Source: a virus. From it: a stretch of 64,000 bases of DNA. This document shows, in pieces, positions 1,467 through 60,118 of the stretch. The stretch covers positions 1 to 64,000 of the IMG/VR virus record IMGVR_UViG_3300047564_002293, one strand, 5' to 3'. The notes under the pieces were generated by a model. The model did not search any database and was not told the origin of the DNA. It worked only from the letters and a program-made list of their open reading frames with translations. The first letter of the stretch is position 1, and each line of letters begins with the position of its first letter. The translations under genes were made by a program, and so were the position numbers.

Positions 1467-2362
1467 TAGAATACTCCCATATCTCCATATTCACCAAATG
1501 GATTACCCTCGGTGAAATCAAGGATAGCATCTGCTTTGGTTTCTAATACTTTATTTTGATCGTTATCGTAGTTATCAATCTCAAACTCAATTGTGGAGAA
1601 TGAATCTATGACCCAAGAAGCACCGCTATCTTGTCCTACTAGAGGAACGTTCTGTTGTAATACTCCATTTATATATGTTAAACGAAGTTTACGACTTGCT
1701 GGTAACCACTCAGCAACAGTTGCTTTTGTTGTAACTGCAGAACCATCGACAATAAAAGTCTGTTCTACTTCTTCACCCGCTATATAAGTGCCAGTTCCAC
1801 CAACCTTAACAAATGCTGGAAATACATGAGACTCTTGTGTGAGATCATCAATAAGTGGATCGCCAGTATTGAAGTAGTTGTCGGCATTCTCGATGAGTTC
1901 GCAAGTTAAAGAAAAAATATAATTTTTTCCTAACTGATAAAAAGGAACTTCTCTTTCAACAAATTTAATCTCATAAAGATTTTTTGTCATTGGAACATAT
2001 AAAAGATCTCCTTCATTTGGTCTATTAGGAACTCTTGTATCAATCTCTGTTTCTACATAGTTGATCCATCTTCTTTTGGATACAGCATATGTAATTTCAT
2101 CAGATAATCTGAGACCAAACTTAGACATTGCAACAGCACCAGAACCACCAAAACCTTCTACGTTAATTAACATCATCTCGATCATTACCTTATCTTCAAA
2201 TTTAGATAAGATAACATCGTTGAGTGTTTTATCAATCAACATAGTTTTTGGCACGTAGATAACATCTTGACCGAACAATTGTATCTGTTCGTCAACTAAA
2301 TCTTGAATGAGCGTTTGCTCGTTGTCTGTTCCGCCAAATTGTGTGAAGTATTGACTTTTCAT
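1466..2362 (-). CDS. 14: Neck protein, gp14-like
   Basis: A 298-residue neck protein. The N-terminal half carries residues typical of T4 gp14: an NEQTLIQDLVDEQIQLFG helix, the strand segment DVIYVPKTM and EGDLLYVPM near residue 120. gp14 and gp13 form the neck ring that joins the filled head to the tail. A C-terminal stretch (about 185-260) is a beta-rich insert containing GTGTYIAGEEVEQ, which resembles domains found in other structural proteins of this phage. It is sandwiched between gp13 and gp15 with one-base TAATG overlaps at both ends. Confidence 0.87.
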   Translation of the reverse strand: MKSQYFTQFGGTDNEQTLIQDLVDEQIQLFGQDVIYVPKTMLIDKTLNDVILSKFEDKVMIEMMLINVEGFGGSGAVAMSKFGLRLSDEITYAVSKRRWINYVETEIDTRVPNRPNEGDLLYVPMTKNLYEIKFVEREVPFYQLGKNYIFSLTCELIENADNYFNTGDPLIDDLTQESHVFPAFVKVGGTGTYIAGEEVEQTFIVDGSAVTTKATVAEWLPASRKLRLTYINGVLQQNVPLVGQDSGASWVIDSFSTIEFEIDNYDNDQNKVLETKADAILDFTEGNPFGEYGDMGVF

Positions 2363-3174
2363 TATCCGATAGCATCCATTGGTGGAATCTCGTAATCAGA
2401 AATCATCTTGCTTTCAATCTCCGCAATCTCTCTAATGGCATCTTCATAGATCTGACGACCATTATACGAGACACCACCAGGAAGTTGAACGCCATTAAAC
2501 TTGATTAAATTCTGCCCCCACTGACGTTTGAAGAGAGCAGTTACATATCTCTTCAACCAAAAATCATTCCAAATTTTTGTTAAGTTTGTTGGATCTAATG
2601 CTCTATAACAATCAATAATAAAAATTTTTCCTTCGGTCATTAATGTGGCATCATAATCAATATAGAGTTTTCCATTTCTTTTGGTGAATCTATACTGAAC
2701 AATTGAACCAGTATTGAGTACCATGTCTAGTGTCTCAATATATGTTTTGGTCATATAGTAATTTAAAATGTCAATAGAACCAAAAGCATACAAGTCGTTC
2801 AGGAAGATTTGATACTCAATACCAAATAGGTCTCCTCTGATGCTACTTGATGTTAATCCAAAAATTCTTTCGATACCAATGATGTGATCTGGTAGTTGTA
2901 GATAGTTATTTCTTTCAGTAAACGTTGTTCCGTCTGAAGATGTATGAGTGGTGTTTGTTGATTTAAAACGTGTAATATCAGCAGATGTCATTGTGTGCTT
3001 GAGATACATTCTCTCAGCACCATCAAAATGACGTTCTTGAAAATATTGTAATGCTTCGTCAATACGATCTTCTAGTTGCGAATCAGCAACGTTAATTTGA
3101 AGAACGGGCGAACCAAGTTCACGCAAACAATATTGTTTTAATTCTTCTCTCGTTGCTGGTTTTGTTGCCGACAT
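2362..3174 (-). CDS. 13: Neck protein, gp13-like
   Basis: A 270-residue protein beginning with a helical region (TREELKQYCLRELG) that is well conserved in gp13 of T4-like phages. This is followed by a segment on inter-subunit contacts (about residues 40-60, ALQYFQERHFDGAERMYLKH) and a long central beta/helix part. It is the first gene of a four-gene set gp13-gp14-gp15-gp16 with overlapping start and stop codons. A late promoter box at 3232-3239 lies upstream, and a perfect hairpin lies between that box and the start codon. Confidence 0.88.
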   Translation of the reverse strand: MSATKPATREELKQYCLRELGSPVLQINVADSQLEDRIDEALQYFQERHFDGAERMYLKHTMTSADITRFKSTNTTHTSSDGTTFTERNNYLQLPDHIIGIERIFGLTSSSIRGDLFGIEYQIFLNDLYAFGSIDILNYYMTKTYIETLDMVLNTGSIVQYRFTKRNGKLYIDYDATLMTEGKIFIIDCYRALDPTNLTKIWNDFWLKRYVTALFKRQWGQNLIKFNGVQLPGGVSYNGRQIYEDAIREIAEIESKMISDYEIPPMDAIG

Positions 3175-3186
3175 TTACCAGTCCTA

Positions 3187-3220
3187 TAAAAAATCCCTAC
3201 ATGTATTTAGCATGTAGGGA
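3187..3220 (-). terminator. Rho-independent terminator or 5' leader hairpin upstream of gp13
   Basis: Perfect 10-bp inverted repeat TCCCTACATG / CATGTAGGGA (3194-3203 and 3211-3220) around a 7-base loop. Read on the minus strand it is followed by six T residues (A-run at 3188-3193). It should terminate transcripts coming through the 65-codon gene at 3243-3440. It also lies downstream of the late promoter box at 3232-3239, so late gp13 transcripts would begin with the hairpin. Confidence 0.8.
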
Positions 3221-3231
3221 CATTGGGTGCC

Positions 3232-3239
3232 TATTTATA
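3232..3239 (-). promoter_or_regulatory. T4-type late promoter box for gp13-gp16
   Basis: The plus strand reads TATTTATA, giving TATAAATA on the coding strand, the sequence recognised by the gp55-type late sigma factor of T4-like phages. It lies just after the stop of the 65-codon gene and about 58 bases before the gp13 start. Confidence 0.7.
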
Positions 3240-3242
3240 AGG

Positions 3243-3440
3243 TCATTCTACGACTTCGGTAGGAGTCGTTTCAGTTGGCTCTTCCGATTCTGGATTCAAA
3301 AGTGCTAGAGTTTCTAGACCACCTTGTAGTTTTAGGCGATATTCTTTCGCCTTTTCTAGATCTGCTTCTAGTTGAGTAATTTGCTCATTAGCAGATTTTA
3401 ATTGATTTTCGAAATTTTCTTTCAGAGTTGCAGTATCCAT
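3243..3440 (-). CDS. Small coiled-coil protein
   Basis: A 65-residue, highly charged protein with a clear heptad pattern over residues 5-45 (LKENFENQLKSANEQITQL), then a Glu/Thr/Pro-rich tail. The start is supported by a TGAGGAAA Shine-Dalgarno sequence 6-7 bases upstream. It closes the tail-accessory transcript, just before the terminator at 3187-3220. A short coiled coil in a fibre cluster could be a trimerization or fibre-assembly chaperone by analogy to T4 gp57A, but no homology is visible. Confidence 0.7.
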   Translation of the reverse strand: MDTATLKENFENQLKSANEQITQLEADLEKAKEYRLKLQGGLETLALLNPESEEPTETTPTEVVE

Positions 3441-3454
3441 GATTTCCTCAATAA

Positions 3455-5164
3455 TTACAGAGTTGTTTTATTTAGTACGGAGATATGAAGACCATTCCAC
3501 CAACTGGATGAATCTTCGTATTGTGTAGTGAGAAGTTGCTTCTCATATAAAATATTTATCTTTGAAAAATTTATGAAGTCTTTTACGGATTTTACTACTC
3601 CTTCGAAATTGGCATCATCTATGACTAGTATAAAAGTATCTTCAAATAACGGCAATAAATGTTTTAAACATTTCATTTGATCAATATAATCATGACTACC
3701 ATCATAAAATATTATATTGGGTTTAACAAATGACAAGTCTATAGATTGTAAATCTTCTATTTTTTTATCTATTAACTTTCCGTTTATTTTATATTTTTTT
3801 ATGTTATCTAATAAAGTATATTTTGGTTTTGAATAACCCGACCACTGAATATCTAATCTAGCGGGTGCTATTTCAGTTTGATAATTATCTATAGCAAATC
3901 CAATTGCATCGGTGTTCATAATTGCTGGTATAAATGTGCTTCCAGCATAAGAACCCAACTCTAAATATTTGGCATCTTTTATAGAACATAAGTTGTTTAA
4001 AAAATGTCTAACTCTATTTGAAGACAATCCTTCAATAGAAAAATTTTTGTCATCAAATTTAGAAATATTTTTTCCAGAGTTATCCAAAGAATTAATTACA
4101 TGTTGTACATATGGATGTAATTGTTTGTCGTATTTTTTTACTCTAGATTCTATAACTGATTCACAATAATTACATTTCCAGCAATCAAATTTACAATTTT
4201 TTATTTTTTGCCGCCAAATATCTATTGGTTTATTTTCAATATGAATGTCGTGAATATATTCGTTAAAATTTTCAAATAACAACTCTTCGTTATTTGCCCA
4301 TCTTTTTATGATATTCATAGATTCATTCAATCTCATGGCAGATTCTCTGCCATGCATTTTAAAAACATCAATTCCCAGATCTATAAATTCTTCCCAATCT
4401 TTTTTCCATGGAGGAATATTGGCAGCCTTTAAAGATGCTGCGGGATCCAACACAGACCATTTAGCACAAGAAACTCTACTAATAGAATCTCCAAAATATT
4501 CTGGATTTTCTACTTTTCTACTATTATTATAATGATAATGTTCTGGCATGATCGGACAACCACCCCAGCAATTTTCGTTCGATAGTAAAGATAATTTTAC
4601 TGGTTTCCCTATAGATTCACAATATTCCTTTGCCTCTTTAATTGCGTTAAGTTGGTCACGATCTCGCATTAAATCTCTATCGAGATTAATGTAATGAAAT
4701 CCTGCCTTTGCTAAAGATACAATTTCGTTTGGTCTGGTAACTTCGCGTAAAATAGTATTTTTAATATAAAGTTCTGGAAATTTTTCTTGTATTTGTCCAG
4801 TAAGTAACCATGTAGTGTGTGGAATAGTTGCTATTCTTACGCCAGCATTATATAATGGTTCAAAATTTGTTATGAATAGATCTAAATTTTCTTGATCTGG
4901 TCGAACAAAAATATTATTAAATGTTGCAGATAAAGGTATTCCAGTCTGTTTTGAAATATAAAGAGAATTGAATGTTGTTTGTTTTTGATCTGCAAAAATA
5001 TCTCCCATAGCATCTTGCTCAAATGGAGGCATTCTGCATGTGAAATATAAATCAAAAATATATTTTTTGTGTTCTATTAAAAATGGTATTAATGTATTTT
5101 CTACAAAATCTTTAGGAAGCTTTGGATTTAGTGGAAGACTGAAGACCTTTTGGTAATGATCCAT
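3455..5164 (-). CDS. U32-peptidase-like Fe-S protein fused to a class I SAM methyltransferase
   Basis: A 569-residue two-domain protein. Residues about 75-290 look like the U32 'peptidase' TIM-barrel family: repeated beta-alpha units, a cysteine-bearing segment NENCWGGCPIMPEHYH (Cys199, Cys203), Cys233, and VFKMHGRESAM near 267-277, resembling the U32 FKIEGR signature. U32 members such as UbiU/UbiV and RlhA bind a 4Fe-4S cluster and act in hydroxylation rather than proteolysis. A second cluster, CKFDCWKCNYC (Cys324, 328, 331, 334), follows. Residues about 385-569 form a Methyltransf_24-type domain: LELGSYAGS (motif I, about 401-409), FYDGSHDY (486-493) and VIDDANF. The start lies 53 bases inside the preceding gene. 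The substrate is unknown; modification of tail proteins or of host glycan or RNA are alternatives. Confidence 0.6.
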   Translation of the reverse strand: MDHYQKVFSLPLNPKLPKDFVENTLIPFLIEHKKYIFDLYFTCRMPPFEQDAMGDIFADQKQTTFNSLYISKQTGIPLSATFNNIFVRPDQENLDLFITNFEPLYNAGVRIATIPHTTWLLTGQIQEKFPELYIKNTILREVTRPNEIVSLAKAGFHYINLDRDLMRDRDQLNAIKEAKEYCESIGKPVKLSLLSNENCWGGCPIMPEHYHYNNSRKVENPEYFGDSISRVSCAKWSVLDPAASLKAANIPPWKKDWEEFIDLGIDVFKMHGRESAMRLNESMNIIKRWANNEELLFENFNEYIHDIHIENKPIDIWRQKIKNCKFDCWKCNYCESVIESRVKKYDKQLHPYVQHVINSLDNSGKNISKFDDKNFSIEGLSSNRVRHFLNNLCSIKDAKYLELGSYAGSTFIPAIMNTDAIGFAIDNYQTEIAPARLDIQWSGYSKPKYTLLDNIKKYKINGKLIDKKIEDLQSIDLSFVKPNIIFYDGSHDYIDQMKCLKHLLPLFEDTFILVIDDANFEGVVKSVKDFINFSKINILYEKQLLTTQYEDSSSWWNGLHISVLNKTTL

Positions 5165-5891
5165 TCAATTCACCTTTATATTCTTTAAGTTGTTTTAATA
5201 GAGGAACTTCTAGATTTTCTTCTATGCCATGGAAAGTTGGAAGTGCCATGCTGTCTGAACGTTCTAAATCCTGTAGATATGGCATTAATTTTTGTTGAAT
5301 TTTACCTATACTGACATTGAGCAGTCCAGAATATTGAACAGCAACTTGAATAGTTGCTAGTTGGTCTTCTTCTGATAACATAGCAATAGAGTCCATGTTA
5401 CCAATACCAATTCTACCACTTGTTGCTAAATCTAGTGCTGCTTGTTTTCCTAATCTAGCAATCCAATATTTCCTTTCTTGTTCCTCATCATATGATAAGT
5501 ATTTTTCCAACTCTTCTGTTGGCATTTCTAGATCTTGTAAATATTTGATAAAACAATCAAATTCATTATCTAATGCTTTCTTTTTTCTCCTATAAGTTTC
5601 ATTATCTATTTCCAAATCTTCTAAATCAATTAATAAAGATTCTCTTTCAAATTCATCTTCACATTTTTCTAGTTTACTTTTAATTTTTTTTATTTCTAAA
5701 AGTGTTCTTTTATTTTGAATAACAACTTTTTGCAAATTGTGATATCTCTGCTCGACCTCAAGTAACGCCTGTTTGATTTGTCTTTCTTTTGTTACGTGAG
5801 ACCTCATAACAAAAAAGTTAATTTGCTCTGGTGACATACCAGAGCACCATTGTTCAGCAATTTGTATAACTTCTTCTTTTGATAATGCCAT
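5112..5891 (-). CDS. Coiled-coil tail-accessory protein, unknown
   Basis: A 259-residue charged protein with a long predicted coiled coil over about residues 30-120, containing IKKIKSKLEKCEDEFERE. The C-terminal part is more globular. It lies downstream of the giant fibre gene and overlaps the start of the U32-methyltransferase fusion by 53 bases, suggesting translational coupling. I recognise no family. Position after a long fibre gene makes a fibre-assembly or attachment role plausible but unproven. Confidence 0.6.
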   Translation of the reverse strand: MALSKEEVIQIAEQWCSGMSPEQINFFVMRSHVTKERQIKQALLEVEQRYHNLQKVVIQNKRTLLEIKKIKSKLEKCEDEFERESLLIDLEDLEIDNETYRRKKKALDNEFDCFIKYLQDLEMPTEELEKYLSYDEEQERKYWIARLGKQAALDLATSGRIGIGNMDSIAMLSEEDQLATIQVAVQYSGLLNVSIGKIQQKLMPYLQDLERSDSMALPTFHGIEENLEVPLLKQLKEYKGELNGSLPKGLQSSTKSKAS

Positions 5892-5909
5892 AATAAACTC
5901 TTTTAATAA

Positions 5910-6665
5910 TTAAAAATTAAATCCAGTTCCTACTGGTTTTCTGTAAACAGTTCCATCTTCTTTTTCTATAAATCTACCACATAATTTTGCTTGCTCGCCA
6001 TGCATAGGAACATTAAAATAATCTTCGTATAAGACGTTCAATTCTTCAATAGATTTTGCTTGGTAGAATTCTTCTTTCAACTCTTGTAAACGCAAGTATA
6101 GTGATTTAATATTCGAATCATATTCTTGTTTTTTATTATTTATTTTGATTATCAAATCTTCTTTTGTGGTTCTTTTTGCTATGGCCAAATTAGCAACAAA
6201 TTGTTCATCATTCAATTGATACTGCCAGGTATTCATTTCGAGTTGAGATGTAGTCGTAACAATTTTTTTATATCTATTTTCAAACTCTTCTTCTAATATT
6301 AATTTAGATAAGAATTGCATAGTTTTAATAACGCAATCATATCTTTTTTGACTCATAGGTATTTTAATTTTATCACTGAATACGGATTCATAATACGAAG
6401 AATCTAAATTTTCTTCATATTCAATATTGAGATCAATGTCTTCTTTAAGAATTTTAATTTCCGATCTCGGATCTCCAAAAGACCTAAAACCAAAAATAGC
6501 CATTTCTTGATCTATTTCTATAAATTTTGAAACATATTTTTTTAAATTTTCAATTTCATATTCTTCTATAGAAAAAGAATTCCAATTTAAAATATTTCCG
6601 TATGGAATATATGTTGATAATTTTGACAATCCTAGATCATCGTTAGATAGATAGTACTTTTTCAT
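5910..6665 (-). CDS. Hypothetical protein downstream of giant fibre, possible fibre chaperone
   Basis: A 251-residue protein. Residues 150-225 are helical, starting with the segment EMNTWQYQLNDEQFVANLA, which has the W..Q..E/D..A pattern often seen in C-terminal domains of phage tail-fibre assembly proteins (seen pattern, inferred role). The C-terminus ends in RKPVGTGFNF. Its ATG lies three bases before the stop of the giant fibre gene is cleared, in the same transcript. Fibre-tip folding chaperones are commonly encoded directly after their fibre, which is the reason for the suggestion. Confidence 0.55.
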   Translation of the reverse strand: MKKYYLSNDDLGLSKLSTYIPYGNILNWNSFSIEEYEIENLKKYVSKFIEIDQEMAIFGFRSFGDPRSEIKILKEDIDLNIEYEENLDSSYYESVFSDKIKIPMSQKRYDCVIKTMQFLSKLILEEEFENRYKKIVTTTSQLEMNTWQYQLNDEQFVANLAIAKRTTKEDLIIKINNKKQEYDSNIKSLYLRLQELKEEFYQAKSIEELNVLYEDYFNVPMHGEQAKLCGRFIEKEDGTVYRKPVGTGFNF

Positions 6666-6668
6666 CGA

Positions 6669-9600
6669 TTAAACCCCCGTGTATCCAGAAATGACACTAC
6701 CAAATTCTGTTCCAGCAGCAGATGCAGCTCCACCTGGACCTACTCTGTTTACAGAACTATTGAATGTGAATGTATCTGCAGTGTAGTTCATAATACCACC
6801 TTGATTGTTCTGAGCACCATTGTACATACCACACATGAAACCATTATTATTACCTGTATGTAGGCTCTCTTCTCCTGTTGCGCCAGGTTTTGAAATAGTT
6901 GCAACTTCTACTCCAGTATCCATTGTTCTCTTAGACCAGTTAGCTCCTGTTGAATAACCACCACCAGTGTTCCAATATCCTCTATTATTTCTTGCAGAAA
7001 TAGTTTTGTTTGAACCATCTGTTCCAGGAGGACTATTCCATCCGACATATGTTTCTGTTGCCCATGGATAATAATAACCATTGCTCTTCTTAGTCCATCC
7101 ATAAATAGCACCATATCCACCAGCTGGGTTGTTTACGGCACCTTCGGGATTTCCGTTTGGTGCTAATGCACAAGTATCATTGGTTAGATTGAATCTATCT
7201 GGTCTACCATCACCAGCACCATATACATATGCGAATCTAAAATCTCTTCTCATTAATGTTGCTCTATTTCTTGCAGATGTTACGGATGTAGTTCCAGCAT
7301 TAGCATTTGTATTCATGTTAACTTTAGATACGGTTGCCGAAGTGCCATCCCAACTATCAGCAGTTGTGAATACATATGCAACCATGCCTAAACTTTGAGC
7401 TCCTGCACAATACGCATCACTGAATGTTAGTAAGTCTCCCAAGTTTGATTGAGTTAATGTGGCATGAGTTAATGAGTTTACATTTTTCCATGATGTCGCG
7501 TTTTGATATCCAGCGAGAGTATACCCTCTAGTAATAGTAAATGCGGACTGATATTGAGTTGCTAGATCAACTTCCCAATACGCATTAGTTCCATTACTTT
7601 TTAATGTGGCACCAATTGTAGATGCGCTTTGTGCAGGTAGTGGGTTGAATAATACACCATTTTTATAAATCTCACCCTGAATATTTAAAGCACCACCAAT
7701 CTGACATGCGTATGCCGAGTTTGTTGATTCGGTTCTAATACCGACATAACCATTAGAATCAACTCTAATACCTGTGGTTCCATTACCACCAGCACGAACA
7801 TAAACACCATAACCAGATCTTGCGGAAATAAAAGTGTCTTCATTTCTACTGAGAACTAGATAATCACCATTATTTGTGTTTGTGCTATGTCTTAATGCGC
7901 CATATGTAGTATCTGCTGGCCAAGTTCTGAGTTGCATTCCACCAGCTGAGGTGATAATACCGCTAGAAGCATCAACGTTTCCACCGAATGTTGCATTATT
8001 ATTAGTTAAATCTATCGTAAGTGGCCATCTACTATTGGCAACTTGCGCCCAGTTTGGTTCAACAGCATTATTTGCTCCACCTAAAATATAGAAAAGATTA
8101 CTATTTACATGAATAAATGCACTTCTGTTATCTGAATCTTGGAAAGTAATTGTCGGTGCTGTTCCAGATAATCTCAAACCATCGCTATCTGCACCAGAAA
8201 TTTGTAAATTCTGGTTCATATTTACAGCAGACCAACCATTTATGTTTAAACTATATGATGTGCTATCACTAGTTAGTTGACCATTTCCACCACTATCCAA
8301 ACCAAAATAGTATCTTCTTGTTCCGCTCCATGCGAATCCCATGTATGCCCAAGAATTATCTGTGGCATTTAGATATAACATTTGGTCGGTAGTTGTAGCA
8401 ATAGTTACTGCATCAGAGAATAAAGCAGTGCCATTGACATCTAACTTGTAACCTGCAGTTGGAGATCTACCAATACCAATTCTACTATCAGAAGTAGCAA
8501 CTAATGTATTTGCAGCAGCTTCACCGCTGAACTGATACATCACTTTGGTCCATGCTCTATCTACAATTTCGAATGATGTTCCTGCTGCCGAAGAACCACC
8601 TAGTTGAATTGTGTAAGTTCCTAGAGTTCTGTCCGAACCTCTACCTCTCCAAGCTTCTCCTGTGTTTGTTGTACCGATTGTAAAACTACCACCTCTGATA
8701 GCACCAGCAACTTCTAGTTTTGTGCCAGGATTAGTTAATCCAACACCGACACGATCGTTTGTTGGGTCAACATATAATGTGTTTGTGTCAACTGTTAAAC
8801 TAGCACCAGCAGCAATTGTTACGTTTCCACTTAACGTAGAAGTTCCGCCAACACTCAAGTTACTGCTTGCTCCACTGATGGTTAGTGAACCAGTCATGGT
8901 ATCACCAGTCTTCAATACGTTGAGAGAAGCGGCACCAGTCAAACTAGCAGTGATAGTACCAGCAGCAAAGTTGCCAGAGGCATCACGCTGAACAGCAGCA
9001 CTCAATACATTGTTCGAAGCAAATACAATGTTGCCAGCATTCCAAATGGCGTTATTATTAATTGTAACAGAACTAGACGTTGCTGCGACAATATTTAAAT
9101 TGCCAGATCCATCAGTTGCATTACCACCAGAAGCAATTAATGCAACGTTATAATTAGTTGCTGCTGAAGAACTACTATTGAAATAAATTGCAGGAGATGA
9201 AGCAGTACCATCCTTTCTGCCGAGTTTTAATCTGCCAGTTCCAGTATCGCTAACAAGAGAAGCTGCGGTGAAAGTTCCAGATGAATTTATTGTGTAATCT
9301 TGGAACGCAACTCTATTAGATGCTGTACCAATTGTCAATGCTCCAGTAAAAGTACCAGTTGTCAGAACACCTCTAATAATAGTGTAGTCTAGTACATCAT
9401 CAGCGTCATTATATGTAATGATATTTGTAATCAGTATAGTTCCCGTGCCTTGCGAGTTTACATCGTAAAGATTGACGTTTTGACCAGCGAGGAATGGTGA
9501 TGTGGTGAGTACATAACCACTGACGTAAATATCATAATAAGGATTATTTGTTGTACTTAAAATATTTACTGCAGTATTGAAATTCTTTTGAGAAATATAT

Positions 9601-44640: not shown

Positions 44641-44902
44641 AGAGATCTCGCAGGTTGTCTTCGAGACTTTCGGTAGACTCGATGTTGCTTCCAAAGGATG
44701 AGGAGTCTTCATAAATTACATTTCCAGTTTCATCAAAAGTTGAAATATTTACTTTGTCATCAGTGCTGTATATACCCTGATACCACTTGTCTGCTAACTC
44801 TAGCATGTGATCAGCTAACTTATCATAATCAGTGAAAGTTTGATCGTCAACCACTTCACCTTCCTTGTTAACAATTTGATAATTAATCTTCTTCTCGGTC
44901 AT
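44570..44902 (-). CDS. Hypothetical acidic protein
   Basis: A 110-residue protein beginning MTEKKINYQIVNKEGEVVDDQ, with an alternating strand-helix pattern, a tract of acidic residues, and a Ser/Thr/Lys-rich tail. An upstream start at 44929 would add nine residues but overlap the AbrB-like gene more. It overlaps that gene's end by 20 bases. Small acidic proteins with this opening recur in cyanophage genomes, to my recollection; function unknown. Confidence 0.65.
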   Translation of the reverse strand: MTEKKINYQIVNKEGEVVDDQTFTDYDKLADHMLELADKWYQGIYSTDDKVNISTFDETGNVIYEDSSSFGSNIESTESLEDNLRDLYGDTRTAGKGFGDSTKESRKNSK

Positions 44903-45083
44903 TTGCAAATTCCTCGTCAACTCGTTCAACTAAAATAGTGCCATCTTTGTTCACACTCCATTCTAGCACATCGCCCTCTTCCCATCCAACACTTTCTAAT
45001 AGGTCTTCGGGGAGTGTTACGAAATACTCCTGAAAGTCATCATTGTATTCTACCGTTGTTTCGTATACTTTATGCATTATCAT
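44883..45083 (-). CDS. AbrB/MazE-fold small DNA-binding-like protein
   Basis: A 66-residue protein whose core YFVTLPEDLLESVGWEEGD (about 20-38), followed by VLEWSVNKDGTILVERV, matches the swapped-hairpin AbrB/SpoVT/MazE domain: strand, LP-x2-LL-x-S-x-GW-x2-GD, strand. Such proteins act as transcription regulators or antitoxins. No matching toxin gene is adjacent; a HicA-like gene lies 470 bases upstream in the same direction. The strongly acidic C-terminus (DREED) is unusual for a DNA-binding protein. A regulatory role in early-to-late switching is a guess. Confidence 0.65.
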   Translation of the reverse strand: MIMHKVYETTVEYNDDFQEYFVTLPEDLLESVGWEEGDVLEWSVNKDGTILVERVDEEFANDREED

Positions 45084-45551: not shown

Positions 45552-45761
45552 TCAGGGGAGGGCAGCGAGTGCCTTCCTGATCACGGCGGACATGCCAGGG
45601 GAGATGGTGCTGCGCCCCTTGCTGCCATGCGTCGGCAGGATGATGTCAGTCTGCCAGGCGGGGTGATTCCAGATCTGATGCGATGCTGTCGTTCGCTTGA
45701 GCACGGCGCCGCTCGCTTTCAGATCTCGCTCCGCTTGCTTCCACTTGAGAGGTGAGGGCAT
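45552..45761 (-). CDS. HicA/YcfA-like protein (orphan toxin-type)
   Basis: A 69-residue protein with the HicA pattern: an N-terminal helix (WKQAERDLKASGAVL), K/R-x-T-x2-SH with the catalytic-type histidine (TTASHQIW, near 27-34), a strand (DIILP-TH) and a terminal helix after the P-G turn (SPGMSAVIRKAL). HicA proteins are double-stranded-RNA-binding-fold mRNA interferases normally neutralized by HicB. No hicB-like gene is adjacent. A GC-rich hairpin (CTGCCC / GGGCAG, 45545-45566) overlaps its stop and may act as a terminator. It sits at the left edge of the GC-rich island. Confidence 0.6.
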   Translation of the reverse strand: MPSPLKWKQAERDLKASGAVLKRTTASHQIWNHPAWQTDIILPTHGSKGRSTISPGMSAVIRKALAALP

Positions 45762-46023: not shown

Positions 46024-46173
46024 TCAGCGCCCATCCCAGCAGGCAGTCTGCCAACCGTCCCGCTCCATACGGCGGCGGTCGAAGTCGTCAGCATCCCAGC
46101 GATCGTCGAAGTCCATGTCGAAGATCTCGCCAGGGGCATCTTGGATCTCGGTGAAGCAGGTGTCGAATTCCAT
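46024..46173 (-). CDS. Hypothetical acidic protein (49 aa)
   Basis: A 49-residue protein opening MEFDTCFTEIQDAPGE, with an Asp/Arg-dense middle (DFDDRWDADDFDRRR) and a Trp/Cys C-terminus (WQTACWDGR). Its promoter-like elements at 46198-46203 and 46234-46257 are described separately. Too short for an automated caller with a 60-codon cut-off; I support it from the intact frame, the leader and the shared upstream architecture. Confidence 0.6.
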   Translation of the reverse strand: MEFDTCFTEIQDAPGEIFDMDFDDRWDADDFDRRRMERDGWQTACWDGR

Positions 46174-46197: not shown

Positions 46198-46257
46198 AGT
46201 CTACAGGGTCGGGGTCAGTCCAGCGAGGCGATCTGTGCCACCTTCTCTGCTGTCACA
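46198..46257 (-). promoter_or_regulatory. Promoter with TGTGCCAC element (gene at 46024)
   Basis: TAGACT -10 box at 46198-46203 and a TGTGCCAC-N-TGTCACA element at 46234-46257. The element starts 36 bases from the -10 start. The -35 region (46221-46226) is not consensus. The element overlaps the 3' coding end of the gene at 46215-46355. Confidence 0.55.
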
Positions 46258-46355
46258 GCGTCAAGGGTCTGGGCAGTCTGCAGGATGGCGCCAGCGGTCT
46301 GAGAGAACATCAGCAGCAGAGCAGCAGCGAGGGCGAGGCGAAGGGTGTTTGCCAT
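46215..46355 (-). CDS. Small secreted or membrane peptide (46 aa)
   Basis: Starts MANTLRLALAAALLLMFSQ, a typical signal peptide or single membrane span (residues 5-22 hydrophobic), with a possible cleavage after SQTAGA. The remaining 23 residues are soluble (LDAVTAEKVAQIASLD). I chose the internal ATG at 46355 over the upstream one at 46415, because the extra residues overlap the preceding gene and are Pro/Ser-rich. The function is unknown; a role at the host membrane is suggested by the leader. Confidence 0.6.
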   Translation of the reverse strand: MANTLRLALAAALLLMFSQTAGAILQTAQTLDAVTAEKVAQIASLD

Positions 46356-46362
46356 GCTAGGA

Positions 46363-46524
46363 TCAGCGATCGAACTGAGCGAGGGAGGAAGGGGCGATGT
46401 GAGAGGGAGAACCACAGGAGCGGTAGAAGTCTACCATACGCTCTGCCTCTGCCAGGGTGGGGAACCACTGCGACCGCCACTCACAGGCATTGTAGGGGGT
46501 CTGGTAGCGAACTTCGATTCTCAT
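46363..46524 (-). CDS. Hypothetical protein (53 aa)
   Basis: Begins MRIEVRYQTPYNACEWRSQW, then an amphipathic helix (PTLAEAERMVDFYR) and a Ser/Pro-rich tail. The pattern strand-W-helix suggests a small alpha/beta protein. Driven by a promoter with -10 at 46551-46556 and a TGTGCCAG element at 46587-46610. Not recognised. Confidence 0.6.
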   Translation of the reverse strand: MRIEVRYQTPYNACEWRSQWFPTLAEAERMVDFYRSCGSPSHIAPSSLAQFDR

Positions 46525-46550
46525 GGTCGTCTCGTTTGGTTGACTCTGTT

Positions 46551-46610
46551 AGTCTAGAGGATGATCAGTTGCACCAGGCGGCGAGGTGTGCCAGTTCGCC
46601 TGCCGTCTCC
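46551..46610 (-). promoter_or_regulatory. Promoter with TGTGCCAG element (gene at 46363)
   Basis: TAGACT -10 box at 46551-46556; TGTGCCAG element begins at 46587, 36 bases from the -10 start. The right half (GCCGTCTCC) is degenerate. The leader between is the shared CTAACAGAGTCAACCAAAC. It overlaps the 3' end of the gene at 46565. Confidence 0.5.
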
Positions 46611-46759
46611 TGCAGGTTGGATTCGGTCAGACCAGCGAGGCAGGATTCGAGATCATCGGGGTCGATGGCGTCGATGTCCCCATTGATCTCCCATGCCTGT
46701 GCCTCAGCGAGGGCGAGGCAGCGATCACGAAGCGAGAGGGTGAAGGTCTTTTCTTTCAT
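46565..46759 (-). CDS. Hypothetical acidic protein (64 aa)
   Basis: Helical, acidic: starts MKEKTFTLSLRDRCLALAEAQ, then an Asp-rich linker (DIDAIDPDDLESCL) and a second helix. A short -10 (TAGACT, 46766-46771) lies upstream; a degenerate copy of the TGTGCCAC element may be at about 46802. No family recognised. Confidence 0.6.
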   Translation of the reverse strand: MKEKTFTLSLRDRCLALAEAQAWEINGDIDAIDPDDLESCLAGLTESNLQETAGELAHLAAWCN

Positions 46760-46768
46760 GCTGTTAGT

Positions 46769-47011
46769 CTAGATGGAGATGGTCTCGTGACGCTGCAGCA
46801 GGGTGCGGTTTGCCCACTGTCCCAGCGAGGTGCCAGGCATCATCAGGCGCAGCATGTCACGGCGGCGGCAGTCGTGACCGCTGACGCTGCCAGAGTGCCA
46901 TTGCACGATGGCGCGACGGGTCAGGGGCGACAGGATCACACGCTCACAGGCGCTGCTAGGGCGTTGCACGTTGATGAACACAGGCAGGTGATCGATGGCG
47001 AAGTTCAGCAT
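46769..47011 (-). CDS. Hypothetical basic protein (80 aa)
   Basis: Begins MLNFAIDHLPVFINVQRP; contains several Arg/His-rich segments (GHDCRRRDMLRLMMPG) and a C-terminal LLQRHETISI. More basic than its neighbours and therefore possibly nucleic-acid-binding. Promoter elements at 47039-47044 and 47075-47098. I do not recognise it. Confidence 0.6.
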   Translation of the reverse strand: MLNFAIDHLPVFINVQRPSSACERVILSPLTRRAIVQWHSGSVSGHDCRRRDMLRLMMPGTSLGQWANRTLLQRHETISI

Positions 47012-47038
47012 GGGTTGGGTTGTTTGGTTGACTCTGTT

Positions 47039-47098
47039 AGTCTAGAGGGTCGGCGGTCGATGCTGGGGGCAGCGTGTGCCACCCCCTCAGGTGTCCTA
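47039..47098 (-). promoter_or_regulatory. Promoter with TGTGCCAC element (gene at 46769)
   Basis: TAGACT -10 box at 47039-47044 and a TGTGCCAC element beginning at 47075, 36 bases from the -10 start. The right half reads GGTGTCCTA. The element overlaps the stop of the ArdA-like gene (47096). No consensus -35 is visible at the expected position. Confidence 0.55.
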
Positions 47099-47524
47099 AT
47101 AGTCGCTGAACACAGCAACCTGACGATACTTCACTTCACAGCAGGTGAAATCGTAACGCAGGGAGGAATCGTAGGTTGCCTGCCAATCTACAACCAAAGC
47201 ACAGGGAACATCGTGCAGATCGCTATAGTATTCTTCAGCGAAGTCTGCCTCAGATTCATACCAACCACGGAAGCGATCATCACATCCTTCGATGTCAGAA
47301 ACGCAACCCATTTCACCAATCAAAGCATCAACGGCATCATATCCGATCGCTTCACCACAGCGGCAATACTCTTCATAATAGGAGACAAAATCGTTCTCAT
47401 TGTAGGTGTCGATGAACTCCAGCATATCATCCAGAGCATAGTTCTCATCGATCAATTCATCGATCTTCTCAACAGCAGCAGCGGAGAGAACTTCTTTGTA
47501 GTTTGCAGTCAAGGTGATGCTCAT
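47096..47524 (-). CDS. ArdA-like acidic antirestriction candidate
   Basis: A 142-residue, very acidic protein (I count about 34 Asp/Glu against 8 Lys/Arg). The segment DDMLEFIDTYNENDFVSYYE and, near the C-terminal part, DRFRGWYESEADFAEEYYSDL resemble the ArdA family, whose members mimic B-form DNA and block type I restriction enzymes (Y-x-G-x-[W/F]-x-[S/D]-E-x-[D/E]-F-A-E pattern). The cysteine-rich composition (8 Cys) is unusual for ArdA. The gene has a consensus -35 TTGACT with a 17-base spacer to CATACT and a TGTGCCAC element. An early anti-restriction role fits, but the identification rests on motif-level resemblance. Confidence 0.55.
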   Translation of the reverse strand: MSITLTANYKEVLSAAAVEKIDELIDENYALDDMLEFIDTYNENDFVSYYEEYCRCGEAIGYDAVDALIGEMGCVSDIEGCDDRFRGWYESEADFAEEYYSDLHDVPCALVVDWQATYDSSLRYDFTCCEVKYRQVAVFSDY

Positions 47525-47548
47525 GTCGTTTGTTTGGTTGACTCTGTT

Positions 47549-47607
47549 AGTATGGCAGGGATTGGGGAGGAAGTCAAGAGGTCTGTGCCACTTGTTGGAT
47601 TGTCACA
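47549..47607 (-). promoter_or_regulatory. Strong early promoter plus TGTGCCAC element (ArdA-like gene)
   Basis: TTGACT (47572-47577), 17-base spacer, CATACT (47549-47554), plus a TGTGCCAC...TTGTCACA element at 47584-47607, 35 bases from the -10 start. The element overlaps the 3' coding end and stop of the 55-residue gene at 47603. Confidence 0.75.
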
Positions 47608-47770
47608 TCCCGTTCAGGAAGTCTGCCATCGCCTCCTGATACTCATCATAGGTTTTGAAGCGGTCAGCGAAGCGAGCGGGCACCTTGCCATCGAACTTAG
47701 CAGGGGCGGGCAGGTCGCGCCCCTTGGCGAGGATCTGCTGTTCATAGACGTTGGGGTTGAAGCGGGTCAT
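47603..47770 (-). CDS. Hypothetical protein (55 aa)
   Basis: Begins MTRFNPNVYEQQILAKGRD and continues with a basic middle (KVPARFADRFK) and an acidic helix (YDEYQEAMADFLNG). A small, mostly helical protein. Not in automated calls longer than 60 codons; supported by intact frame, leader and upstream elements (TAGACT at 47797-47802; TGTGCCAC at 47832-47855). Confidence 0.62.
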   Translation of the reverse strand: MTRFNPNVYEQQILAKGRDLPAPAKFDGKVPARFADRFKTYDEYQEAMADFLNGM

Positions 47771-47796
47771 TCGGTCTCGTTTGTTTGGTATGCTTT

Positions 47797-47855
47797 AGTC
47801 TACAGGGTCAGGCGGGGGATCTGGTCCCCCTTGTGCCACCTTGCCAACTGGTCAG
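47797..47855 (-). promoter_or_regulatory. Promoter with TGTGCCAC element (gene at 47603)
   Basis: TAGACT -10 box at 47797-47802; TGTGCCAC...CTGGTCAG element at 47832-47855, 35 bases from the -10 start; no consensus -35. A GC-rich hairpin GGGGGATCTGGTCCCCC sits between (47814-47830). Confidence 0.55.
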
Positions 47856-48085
47856 GGCAGCACCGCCAGACGCTCAGCGAGTCGCGCCTTCGCTTGAATC
47901 TCCTCAAGCGAGGGGATCTGTTCAATCCAACGCATCTCACACTTAGAGTAATCGTATCCCTGAACTTCCAATTCTTTCATGTATGCCACAGCGGCGGAGT
48001 GATAATCGAACAGACGCAGGGAAGAGAAGTCTTCACCTTCATAATCCCATCCGCCGATGACAGCGTAGGCGCGAGGCGTTTCCAT
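47852..48085 (-). CDS. Hypothetical alpha/beta protein (77 aa)
   Basis: Starts METPRAYAVIGGWDYEGED. A strand-turn-helix pattern follows (LFDYHSAAVAYMKELEVQGYDY), then CEMRWIEQIP and a charged helix. The start at 48085 is chosen because GGAGATCAA gives a Shine-Dalgarno site; an upstream ATG at 48157 would read through the promoter. Similar 'AYAVI..W.YEGED' proteins occur in cyanophages to my recollection; function unknown. Confidence 0.65.
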   Translation of the reverse strand: METPRAYAVIGGWDYEGEDFSSLRLFDYHSAAVAYMKELEVQGYDYSKCEMRWIEQIPSLEEIQAKARLAERLAVLP

Positions 48086-48113
48086 TTGATCTCCGTTTCG
48101 TTTGGTATGCTTT

Positions 48114-48173
48114 AGTATTGCACCGATCGGGGGGCATCGCAAGGGGGTCTGTGCCACCTGTGCTAGTGTCCAC
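48114..48173 (-). promoter_or_regulatory. Early promoter plus TGTGCCAC element (gene at 47852)
   Basis: TTGCGA (48137-48142), 17-base spacer, AATACT (48114-48119); TGTGCCAC element at 48150-48173, 36 bases from the -10 start. A direct repeat GCCCCCTAG (48175-48183 and 48190-48198, period 15) follows in a 100-base non-coding stretch. Confidence 0.6.
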
Positions 48174-48258
48174 TGCCCCCTAGACAGACGCCCCCTAGGC
48201 GACTAACCTAGAGGGCGGGAGGGGAGGGAAGGGGGCAGCGAAGCGGCCGCCCAGTTTG

Positions 48259-48435
48259 TTATACTTCCAGTAGTTCAGGATAGTATTGCTGAACCTCTTC
48301 ATTCAGTTCTTCATCGTTATACTTATCGTATCCCTCCATGAGATAATCGTAGCAGAGACACATCATAGTTTTGAGATCCATGTCATCCAACATTTGCTGG
48401 ACAAGTTGATCCTGAAGTTCTTTGCGATCCATCAT
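48259..48435 (-). CDS. Hypothetical acidic protein (58 aa)
   Basis: Begins MMDRKELQDQLVQQMLDDMD, helical, then a Cys/Tyr-rich middle (MMCLCYDYLMEGYDKY) and an acidic end. The start ATGATG overlaps the stop of the preceding membrane-peptide gene (ATGA), so the two are translationally coupled. It marks the right edge of the GC-rich island. Function unknown; small acidic proteins of this type recur in cyanophage early regions. Confidence 0.65.
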   Translation of the reverse strand: MMDRKELQDQLVQQMLDDMDLKTMMCLCYDYLMEGYDKYNDEELNEEVQQYYPELLEV

Positions 48436-48557
48436 TTGTTCAGGGGAGAATTGTAGAAAGATTTGAACACCGAAATCACAATGATAGCGGTGGAGATGAC
48501 ACCAACGAACCCGAGGTAAGTTACAGCGTCACCAGTGAAATTGTAAGATTCAGGCAT
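48432..48557 (-). CDS. Small single-pass membrane peptide (41 aa)
   Basis: MPESYNFTGDAVTYLGFVG, followed by a hydrophobic span (VISTAIIVISVF) and a short basic C-terminus (KSFYNSPLNK). Its stop overlaps the start of the next gene. A -10 box AATACT at 48578-48583 and a perfect TGTGCCAC inverted repeat at 48609-48640 lie upstream. A membrane role is inferred from the hydrophobic core only. Confidence 0.6.
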   Translation of the reverse strand: MPESYNFTGDAVTYLGFVGVISTAIIVISVFKSFYNSPLNK

Positions 48558-48577
48558 CGGATTTGTTTGACTCTGTT

Positions 48578-48640
48578 AGTATTGCATCAAATGTGGGCAG
48601 ATGGTGATACCCTGTGCCACTTGTTGAACTGGCACAGGGT
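48578..48640 (-). promoter_or_regulatory. Promoter with perfect TGTGCCA inverted repeat (membrane-peptide gene)
   Basis: AATACT -10 box at 48578-48583; ACCCTGTGCCA / TGGCACAGGGT perfect 11-bp inverted repeat (48609-48619 and 48630-48640) with a 10-base spacer. TGTG starts 35 bases from the -10. This is the most symmetric copy of the island's element and may be the template of the recognition sequence. Confidence 0.65.
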
Positions 48641-48824: not shown

Positions 48825-48853
48825 ATTGAATATGATTAGACATCATATTCAAT
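48825..48853 (-). repeat. 12-bp hairpin at a stop codon
   Basis: ATTGAATATGAT / ATCATATTCAAT perfect 12-bp stem (48825-48836 and 48842-48853) with a five-base loop. It overlaps the stop codon of the gene at 48836-48964 and the -10 region of the next gene. It could be an attenuator or mRNA 3' end; no T-run follows. Confidence 0.6.
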
Positions 48854-48964
48854 TGTCATCGTATCTTCGATGATATAATCATCGATGATATAACCATCTT
48901 CATCTAGAAAGATATCAGCCACCTCTTGTTCTACAATTTCTTGATACATTTCAGAAATGGTCAT
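48836..48964 (-). CDS. Hypothetical acidic protein (42 aa)
   Basis: MTISEMYQEIVEQEVADIF followed by Asp/Ile-rich repeats (EDGYIIDDYIIEDT). Strongly acidic. Shine-Dalgarno AAGGAG precedes the ATG by 8-9 bases, in contrast to the A/C-rich leaders of neighbours. No recognised family. Confidence 0.55.
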   Translation of the reverse strand: MTISEMYQEIVEQEVADIFLDEDGYIIDDYIIEDTMTIEYDV

Positions 48965-49034: not shown

Positions 49035-49121
49035 AAGATTCTGAGGTTTCTGAGAATTTTAAGTTTTCAAGGTTTCTGAGAATTCAAAGTTTGTTAAAAT
49101 TCTCAGAAACCTCAGAATCTT
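49035..49121 (-). repeat. 28-bp perfect inverted repeat at gene 3' end
   Basis: Arms 49035-49062 and 49094-49121 are perfect reverse complements over 28 bases (GATTCTGAGGTTTCTGAGAA is the core of one arm). The 31-base spacer holds a further partial copy (AAGGTTTCTGAGAATTC). The right arm touches the stop codon of the gene at 49121. Related sequence occurs again at 50250-50405. A very stable mRNA 3' hairpin or a recombination target are both possible. Confidence 0.85.
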
Positions 49122-49435
49122 CAGTTCAGGCGCATTCCAGAAAAGAAAGGAATTGCACCGCCTTCCTGACTCACAAACCACTCAAATTTCTTCTGAAACA
49201 CACGCTCACCAGGGATACCATGCTCACAGAGAATAGCATTCAGGCGAGACTTGGTGGTGTTAGATTGCCAACCACCATCAAAAAGAGTAACAAAGCACTC
49301 GCCAATCTCAGCGATTTTGTTACCATGCAGGAAGACTTCGCTCACACCATCATTGGTGACAACTTTGGTGTTATCTTTCTGCCAATCTTTGCCGTTGGTG
49401 ATAGCGGCGTTCATTTGGCGTTCGATGAGGCGCAT
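49121..49435 (-). CDS. Conserved hypothetical protein (104 aa)
   Basis: Starts MRLIERQMNAAITNGKDWQ; strands TKVVTNDGVSEVFLHGN and KIAEIGECFVTLFDGGWQS follow, and the C-terminal half is KFEWFVSQEG-like. I recall near-identical openings in T4-like cyanophages (recollection, no search). The internal start at 49435 is preferred over 49504 because a consensus promoter (TTGACT, 49483-49488, 17 bases, CATACT) lies between the two. Confidence 0.75.
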   Translation of the reverse strand: MRLIERQMNAAITNGKDWQKDNTKVVTNDGVSEVFLHGNKIAEIGECFVTLFDGGWQSNTTKSRLNAILCEHGIPGERVFQKKFEWFVSQEGGAIPFFSGMRLN

Positions 49436-49459
49436 GGGTCGTTTGCTGTTGACTTGGTT

Positions 49460-49488
49460 AGTATGGAGCCGATCAGGGCAAAAGTCAA
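49460..49488 (-). promoter_or_regulatory. Early promoter, gene at 49121
   Basis: TTGACT at 49483-49488, 17-base spacer, CATACT at 49460-49465. The leader CAACAGCAAACGACCC precedes the ATG and has no Shine-Dalgarno. Confidence 0.7.
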
Positions 49489-49543
49489 CCCCCCTAACCA
49501 TCACCTTTGCTTATGGGTTCGATCAGGGGGGCTTATCGTTGAG

Positions 49544-59726: not shown

Positions 59727-60118
59727 CGTCCTGTTATGTCCTCATAGTCTTGTAGTTTACCATATTTGAAGTGCAATTTCAAGCGGGGCCAGTCCTCCCA
59801 TGCTCCCTGCCAATTAGCAGGATACACTTCGATATACCTTGTGATATAACATGGTTGATATTTGCCATGCACACCAGTAGGAACCCATTCATGATTAAAA
59901 AACTTCTTGTCTGGATTATACTTAGGATGACCTTCTTCGTATATCTCCAGTGTGCTGCATCCAATATAACTTGGATACCACAATAGACCACTGGGATCTA
60001 ACCAGTAGTCTGTCATGGTGCCACCAATACCATCTTCAATATCTTTGGTTTGGCACACCACATTTGTAAACTGCTCGCCCAAATCATATGATGAGCGGAA
60101 ATAGTCGAACATACCCAT
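59723..60118 (-). CDS. Conserved phage protein (131 aa)
   Basis: MGMFDYFRSSYDLGEQFTN is an opening that I recall from several phages (MGMFDYFRSSY-type), then TKDIEDGIGGTMTDYWLDP, WYPSYIGCSTLEIYE and FFNHEWVPTG. Tyr- and Trp-rich, likely beta. Function unknown. Overlaps the previous gene by four bases (ATGA). Confidence 0.7.
   Translation of the reverse strand: MGMFDYFRSSYDLGEQFTNVVCQTKDIEDGIGGTMTDYWLDPSGLLWYPSYIGCSTLEIYEEGHPKYNPDKKFFNHEWVPTGVHGKYQPCYITRYIEVYPANWQGAWEDWPRLKLHFKYGKLQDYEDITGR

Follow-up and report, generated by a model that had tools for sequence, protein, structure and literature searches.

Transcription ordering in T4-like cyanophages is poorly understood and, to our knowledge, these phages have no recognisable MotA or AsiA. 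A stretch of viral DNA in which one short repeat, TGTGCCAC, precedes seven small genes raises the question of what such a repeat does, and of whether it belongs to the virus or to its host. The window analysed here is the whole 64,000-nucleotide (nt) stretch at positions 1-64,000 of IMG/VR record IMGVR_UViG_3300047564_002293, a fragment of a T4-like cyanophage, and the repeat lies in its GC-rich island. Comparison of the seven copies with related phages showed the repeat to be one half, the promoter-side one, of a quasi-palindrome of 24 bp, TGTGMCA-S-TT-N4-AA-S-TGGCACA, whose distance to the -10 hexamer is fixed. The element seems to be a switch belonging to the virus, probably one that serves genes of early infection, because the same site and the same spacing recur across T4-like cyanophages of ocean and lake but not in host genomes.

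Structure and spacing of the element

TGTGCCA is found on the plus strand at the first coordinate of each of the seven elements in Table 1, that is, as TGGCACA on the minus strand, and all seven copies lie upstream of minus-strand genes. A letter search of the window recovered every copy at the promoter to which the original prediction, made from the sequence alone, had assigned it; the adjoining base, proposed as C or G, proves to be C six times and G once, and the 11-bp inverted repeat proposed at 48609-48640 is real. In 7/7 copies a -10 hexamer (TAGACT, CATACT or AATACT) begins 30 or 31 nt past the element on the minus strand, which is the same as the predicted 35 or 36 bases once the count runs to the hexamer's other end. 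The distal half (TGTGACA or TGTGCCA) is intact in three window copies and degenerate in four. No good half-site accompanies the TAGACTAA -10 boxes at 46771 and 46010. Several of the promoters had been said to be without a consensus -35, and indeed five of the seven match TTGACA at three or fewer of the six positions (range 0-3), the others reaching 5/6 (47584) and 4/6 (48150).

The prediction had also held that there is no copy outside 46.2-48.7 kb. This is incorrect for the bare 7-mer, which also occurs at 8721, 10614, 10912, 16423, 33923, 54139 and 60051, but it is right for the promoter architecture, which is absent from those places; a lone, chance-like half-site with TATGAT is present at 60057. 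Random occurrence, named beforehand as what could overturn the prediction, is contradicted by shuffles of the island: when 46.0-48.8 kb was shuffled 2,000 times with dinucleotide content preserved, the 7-mer had a mean of 0.18 copies and a maximum of 3, compared with 7 observed, and it was never accompanied by a -10 of this type at 30 or 31 nt, compared with 7/7 in the actual sequence.

The spacing could be examined independently in IMG/VR sites that were oriented solely by the asymmetry of the element (distal TGTGACA, promoter-side TGGCACA). Sites oriented in this manner carry TTG at +8 to +10 and TATAAT at +30/31, which indicates that the element TGTGMCASTTNNNNAASTGGCACA ends 7 nt before the -35 position; it spans about -66 to -43. 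When -10-like hexamers were pooled over seven phage genomes, they peaked at +30 (54) and +31 (42), with roughly 7-23 at neighbouring offsets. P-SSM2 has 17 sites, which lie in AT-richer DNA. A perfect TATAAT stands at +30/31 of most of them; many are found 56-65 nt ahead of an annotated start codon and abut or extend into the end of the preceding gene. A half-site is present at the expected distance in 9/9 TATGCTAGCTAAGTG core promoters of S-CRM01. In Syn9, the TATTCTATAAGAGTCA promoters at 48611, 51053 and 53049 carry the element, while those at 46342 and 47257 have TGTGCCAGTT or TGTGACACCT correctly placed and a damaged promoter-side half. The spacing is thus kept in relatives, where its loss would have counted against the prediction.

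The interior of the element was analyzed in 333 oriented, deduplicated sites. Positions 8 and 17 favour like bases (GG 122, CC 76, GC 70, CG 27), with 101 pairable combinations versus 154 expected, and positions 5 and 20 are independent (180 pairable versus 184 expected). By this GG/CC preference the two halves tend to differ at that position, which points either to some asymmetry in the bound complex or to an avoidance of perfect palindromes; none of the explanations considered so far accounts for it.

Distribution among phages and hosts

Phage genomes were scanned at up to 3 mismatches to TGTGNCANTTNNNNAANTGGCACA, with the reversed pattern as a control. Eighteen of 20 named T4-like cyanophages gave 2 to 20 matches per strand, and the control gave 0-1. 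At this threshold the element was not found in the remaining two, S-SM2 and SynMITS9220M01, which are useful negatives for tracing the binding protein, nor in T4, the podoviruses P-SSP7 and Syn5, the siphovirus S-CBS2 or Ma-LMM01. The exact pattern is present in at least 120 IMG/VR stretches.

Cellular genomes gave a different picture. In 257 Gb of bacterial and archaeal genomes the exact pattern had 63 matches, with ~30 expected by simple base count, and with one mismatch allowed a site was found in 8/300 Cyanobiaceae and 17/242 Cyanobacteriia genomes, where control counts were small. The element is near background frequency in hosts. Among the 63 matches are two contigs filed as Nonlabens xiamenensis (L130) and as a Flavobacteriales metagenome-assembled genome (L191), which hold several copies, at least one in each with TATAAT at the fixed distance; they are probably cyanophage contamination or misbinning.

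A distinct arrangement was observed in freshwater contigs (L297 (G001), at 1638-6750, and also L047, L052 and L109), where the 24-mer forms tandem arrays with a 58-bp period (TGTGACACTTTCTAAACTGGCACA, 7 nt, TTGACA). These arrays lie upstream of small genes, including ones for HigA-like antitoxins and KTSC-like proteins. By blast, no open reading frame (ORF) of L297 matches the T4-like cyanophages compared.

Proposed role and alternatives

We consider it rather likely that the 24-bp element is bound by a dimer specific to, and probably encoded by, the phage, which would recruit host RNA polymerase to promoters with a weak -35. A protein that aids the host polymerase is favoured because of the upstream position of the site, its exact spacing and the mostly poor -35 hexamers, TTG being present in just 86 of the 333 sites. 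The composite promoter would read, in order, element, 7 nt, weak or absent -35, 16-17 nt, -10 and a phage-specific start region. The dimer, possibly arriving with the virion, would bind about -66 to -43, its promoter-side subunit would contact the host RNA polymerase holoenzyme, and the polymerase would in this way be brought to small host-takeover genes in variable islands.

The nature of the downstream genes bears on when such a switch might act. In the window these genes are small and mostly without an assigned function, the best characterised being the ArdA-like antirestriction gene. Among the contigs fetched, a near-perfect element with a -10 is present within 160 nt upstream of 17/23 ArdA-like genes versus 311/3,811 (8%) other ORFs; in the closest relatives (L013 and L018) an element also lies upstream, and was missed by the 160-nt search window. 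Antirestriction proteins are typically made early, and an early or host-takeover regulon is therefore the natural reading; the ArdA-like targets suggest that the element marks genes of this kind. The spacing rule and the list of targets, antirestriction genes included, would make early-gene candidates predictable from sequence in uncultured cyanophages, and the 24-bp site offers a direct bait for the missing regulator.

A more ambitious form of this proposal is that T4-like cyanophages have a putative activator of their own, perhaps delivered by the virion, which would bind an obligatorily asymmetric 24-bp quasi-palindrome and replace the -35 contact, so that early host-takeover genes would belong to one phage-wide regulon that differs from the T4 early, middle and late scheme. 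We put this forward tentatively, as a possibility that we would not ourselves expect to hold in full.

Several observations weigh against activation. S-SM2 and SynMITS9220M01 are T4-like cyanophages and manage without the element. The site is centred near -54.5, where a classical class I or II activator would not usually bind, and an immediate-early activator would have to be there from the moment of infection, as a protein borne by the virion. Comparison of the gene content of seven element-bearing phages with that of S-SM2 and SynMITS9220M01 yielded no obvious DNA-binding protein. In the 333 sites, element strength and -35 quality are positively correlated (Spearman +0.30), and a simple compensation for a missing -35 is consequently not supported; moreover, these sites were chosen for a good -10, so that -10 strength among them is no independent evidence.

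The candidate binding protein that we considered is an AbrB/MazE-fold protein of family phrog_661, encoded close to the island (Table 1). Strong matches to this family are present in 13/18 element-bearing versus 0/7 element-free phages (Fisher p 0.0016), with p 0.11 within T4-like cyanophages. In many genomes its gene lies in or beside the element cluster, and in many T4-like cyanophages it is conserved beside gp25. It was not detected in S-CRM01, S-SSM7, P-HM1 and S-SCSM1, and its isoelectric point (pI) is near 4 in most members tested. Since S-CRM01 and S-SSM7 have many sites, and since most members are so acidic, phrog_661 is a weak candidate and a poor one for DNA binding.

Repression is retained as the main rival to activation because stronger elements accompany better -35 hexamers. 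Here a phage repressor made early would bind the element and switch the promoters off at the onset of middle transcription. The near-symmetric dimer site suits such a protein, as does the positive correlation, which fits repression of strong promoters. TTG occupies the -35 in 86/333 sites (26%), and some of these promoters have strong cores that should need no help. A repressor also requires no protein at time zero. We nonetheless regard repression as the less likely reading, in that the site, at -66 to -43, does not cover the core promoter but lies upstream of the -35, and a poor -35 in five of the seven window promoters would leave them weak if unaided.

Unrelated genes within one phage are preceded by a core promoter and leader peculiar to that phage, in the window TAGACTAACAGAGTCAACC; the repetition was observed for the window, for Syn9 and for S-CRM01, and every time in variable islands of small genes. 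Such repetition is what would be expected if element and promoter were kept mainly as a homology patch for gene exchange, as in the PeSL, or mobile regulatory, cassettes of enteric T4-like phages (Arbiol et al. 2010; Comeau et al. 2014; both as cited in PMC4503421). The likeness is that of a promoter unit repeated between unrelated small genes where the genome of a T4-like phage is variable, and the difference is that the present element has no conserved stem-loop terminator or T tail and that its conserved upstream part behaves as a protein site. Homology alone leaves unexplained the exact -10 spacing, the conservation of the 24-mer rather than of the linker and the GG/CC asymmetry, and no intrinsic terminator accompanies the element; as the main explanation, gene shuffling is improbable, although it can coexist with regulation.

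The original prediction allowed for a regulon encoded by either phage or host. Its view of a regulon-type site stands, but a host-encoded regulon is very unlikely because the element is near background in the 300 Cyanobiaceae and 242 Cyanobacteriia genomes, and we rejected it on these scans and that of bacteria at large. For the idea that the phage has borrowed the site of some host regulator, such as NtcA or one of CRP type, it can be said that cyanophages are generally known to depend on host RNA polymerase, that the TGTGA half-site is CRP-like, and that the element, like the cyanobacterial CRP and NtcA sites, is a dimer-type inverted repeat located upstream of the -35, its TGTG half-site resembling that of CRP. 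The spacing and core sequence are nevertheless unlike theirs, and hosts have no corresponding regulon. When the 333 sites were compared with both types, neither pattern fitted: TGTG-N16-CACA is present in 223/333, CRP TGTGA-N6-TCACA in 0/333 and NtcA GTA-N8-TAC within the element in 0/333.

An RNA hairpin at the end of the upstream gene, acting as a terminator or processing site, is hardly credible. Elements do reach, or lie within, the 3' end of the gene before them, and the copy within 48609-48640 folds well (z -4.9), but the folds of the other six window copies are at best modestly more stable than those of shuffles (z 0.21 to -1.74). Within the stem, the bases at 8/17 are anti-complementary and those at 5/20 show no linkage, and at least five T within 8 nt after the element occur in only 6/333 sites. 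Unlike an intrinsic terminator, the element has neither a conserved stem nor a following T-run, and an Rfam scan at E up to 1 gave no match at the element sites. The hairpin was rejected on anti-covariation, folding and the missing T-run, and the constraint is shown to act at the level of DNA rather than RNA. Lastly, chance in GC-rich DNA, for which the island's GC content of up to ~55% might speak, has practically no standing and is refuted by the shuffles and by the conservation of an identical architecture in AT-rich relatives such as P-SSM2.

Known systems and neighbouring features

The element resembles T4 middle and late promoters in that a phage-specific element lies near, or replaces part of, a sigma-70 promoter. 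It differs in being a 24-bp inverted repeat that lies further upstream; in addition, the TGCTT core of the MotA box is present near -35/-30 in only 4/333 element sites and the late TATAAATA at -10 in 2/333. The prediction that the element is not described by the T4 classes is thus borne out as regards the middle and late ones, while its suggestion of an undescribed element is probably wrong. In 2016 Doron et al. reportedly described a novel early-gene regulatory element of Syn9 and P-TIM40, conserved in T4-like cyanophages. The present element resembles the one reported in that it is specific to phages, precedes presumed early genes, is conserved (18/20 T4-like cyanophages), is abundant in the environment (at least 120 IMG/VR stretches) and is present in Syn9. 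The two are, on balance, likely to be the same, and this kind of element is probably already known. The 24-bp structure, the spacing rule, the 8/17 asymmetry, the near-absence from hosts, the link to ArdA and the 58-bp tandem arrays were measured here independently of the published description.

The island (45.5-49 kb) has ~55% GC, compared with 30-40% across most of the window, and adjoins gp6- and gp25-like genes at 41.3-43.5 kb, an arrangement also found in S-PM2, DSL-LC02 and S-RIM8. The coordinates of the features are given in Table 1.

Table 1. Elements, repeated promoter unit and associated genes in the window
Feature	Position	Strand	Context
Element TGTGACAGCAGAGAAGGTGGCACA, 24 bp	46234..46257	-	Before gene 46024-46173; -10 TAGACT at +31
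Element, promoter-side half intact, distal half degenerate	46587..46610	-	Before gene 46363-46524; -10 TAGACT at +31
Element, promoter-side half intact	47075..47098	-	Before gene 46769-47011; -10 TAGACT at +31
Element TGTGACAATCCAACAAGTGGCACA	47584..47607	-	Before ArdA-like gene 47096-47524; -35 TTGACT, 17 nt, -10 CATACT
Element, promoter-side half intact	47832..47855	-	Before gene 47603-47770; -10 TAGACT at +30
Element, promoter-side half intact, distal half TGGACA-like	48150..48173	-	Before gene 47852-48085; -35 TTGCGA, 17 nt, -10 AATACT
Complete element TGTGCCAGTTCAACAAGTGGCACA, within 11-bp inverted repeat 48609-48640	48613..48636	-	Before gene 48432-48557; -10 AATACT at +30
Repeated core promoter and leader, example TAGACTAACAGAGTCAACCAAAC	47016..47044	-	Common to otherwise unrelated genes
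ArdA-like antirestriction gene	47096..47524	-	phrog_36653, E 9.6e-37; weak Pfam ArdA match, below cut-off; element at 47584
AbrB/MazE-fold protein, phrog_661, 66 aa, pI 4.05	44883..45083	-	Weak binding-protein candidate

A HicA-like toxin gene lies at the edge of the island (45552-45761, minus strand), with a Pfam E of 9.7e-6, just under the cut-off, and a match to a phrog toxin family; a HicB partner was not noted, and no search aimed at HicB was made. On the other side, the AT-rich gap between genes 48836-48964 and 49121-49504 holds a long, near-perfect inverted repeat with arms of ~26 bp (49036-49119). The matches to miRNA-named Rfam families at 49.0 kb correspond to this repeat, fall under gathering thresholds and are spurious.

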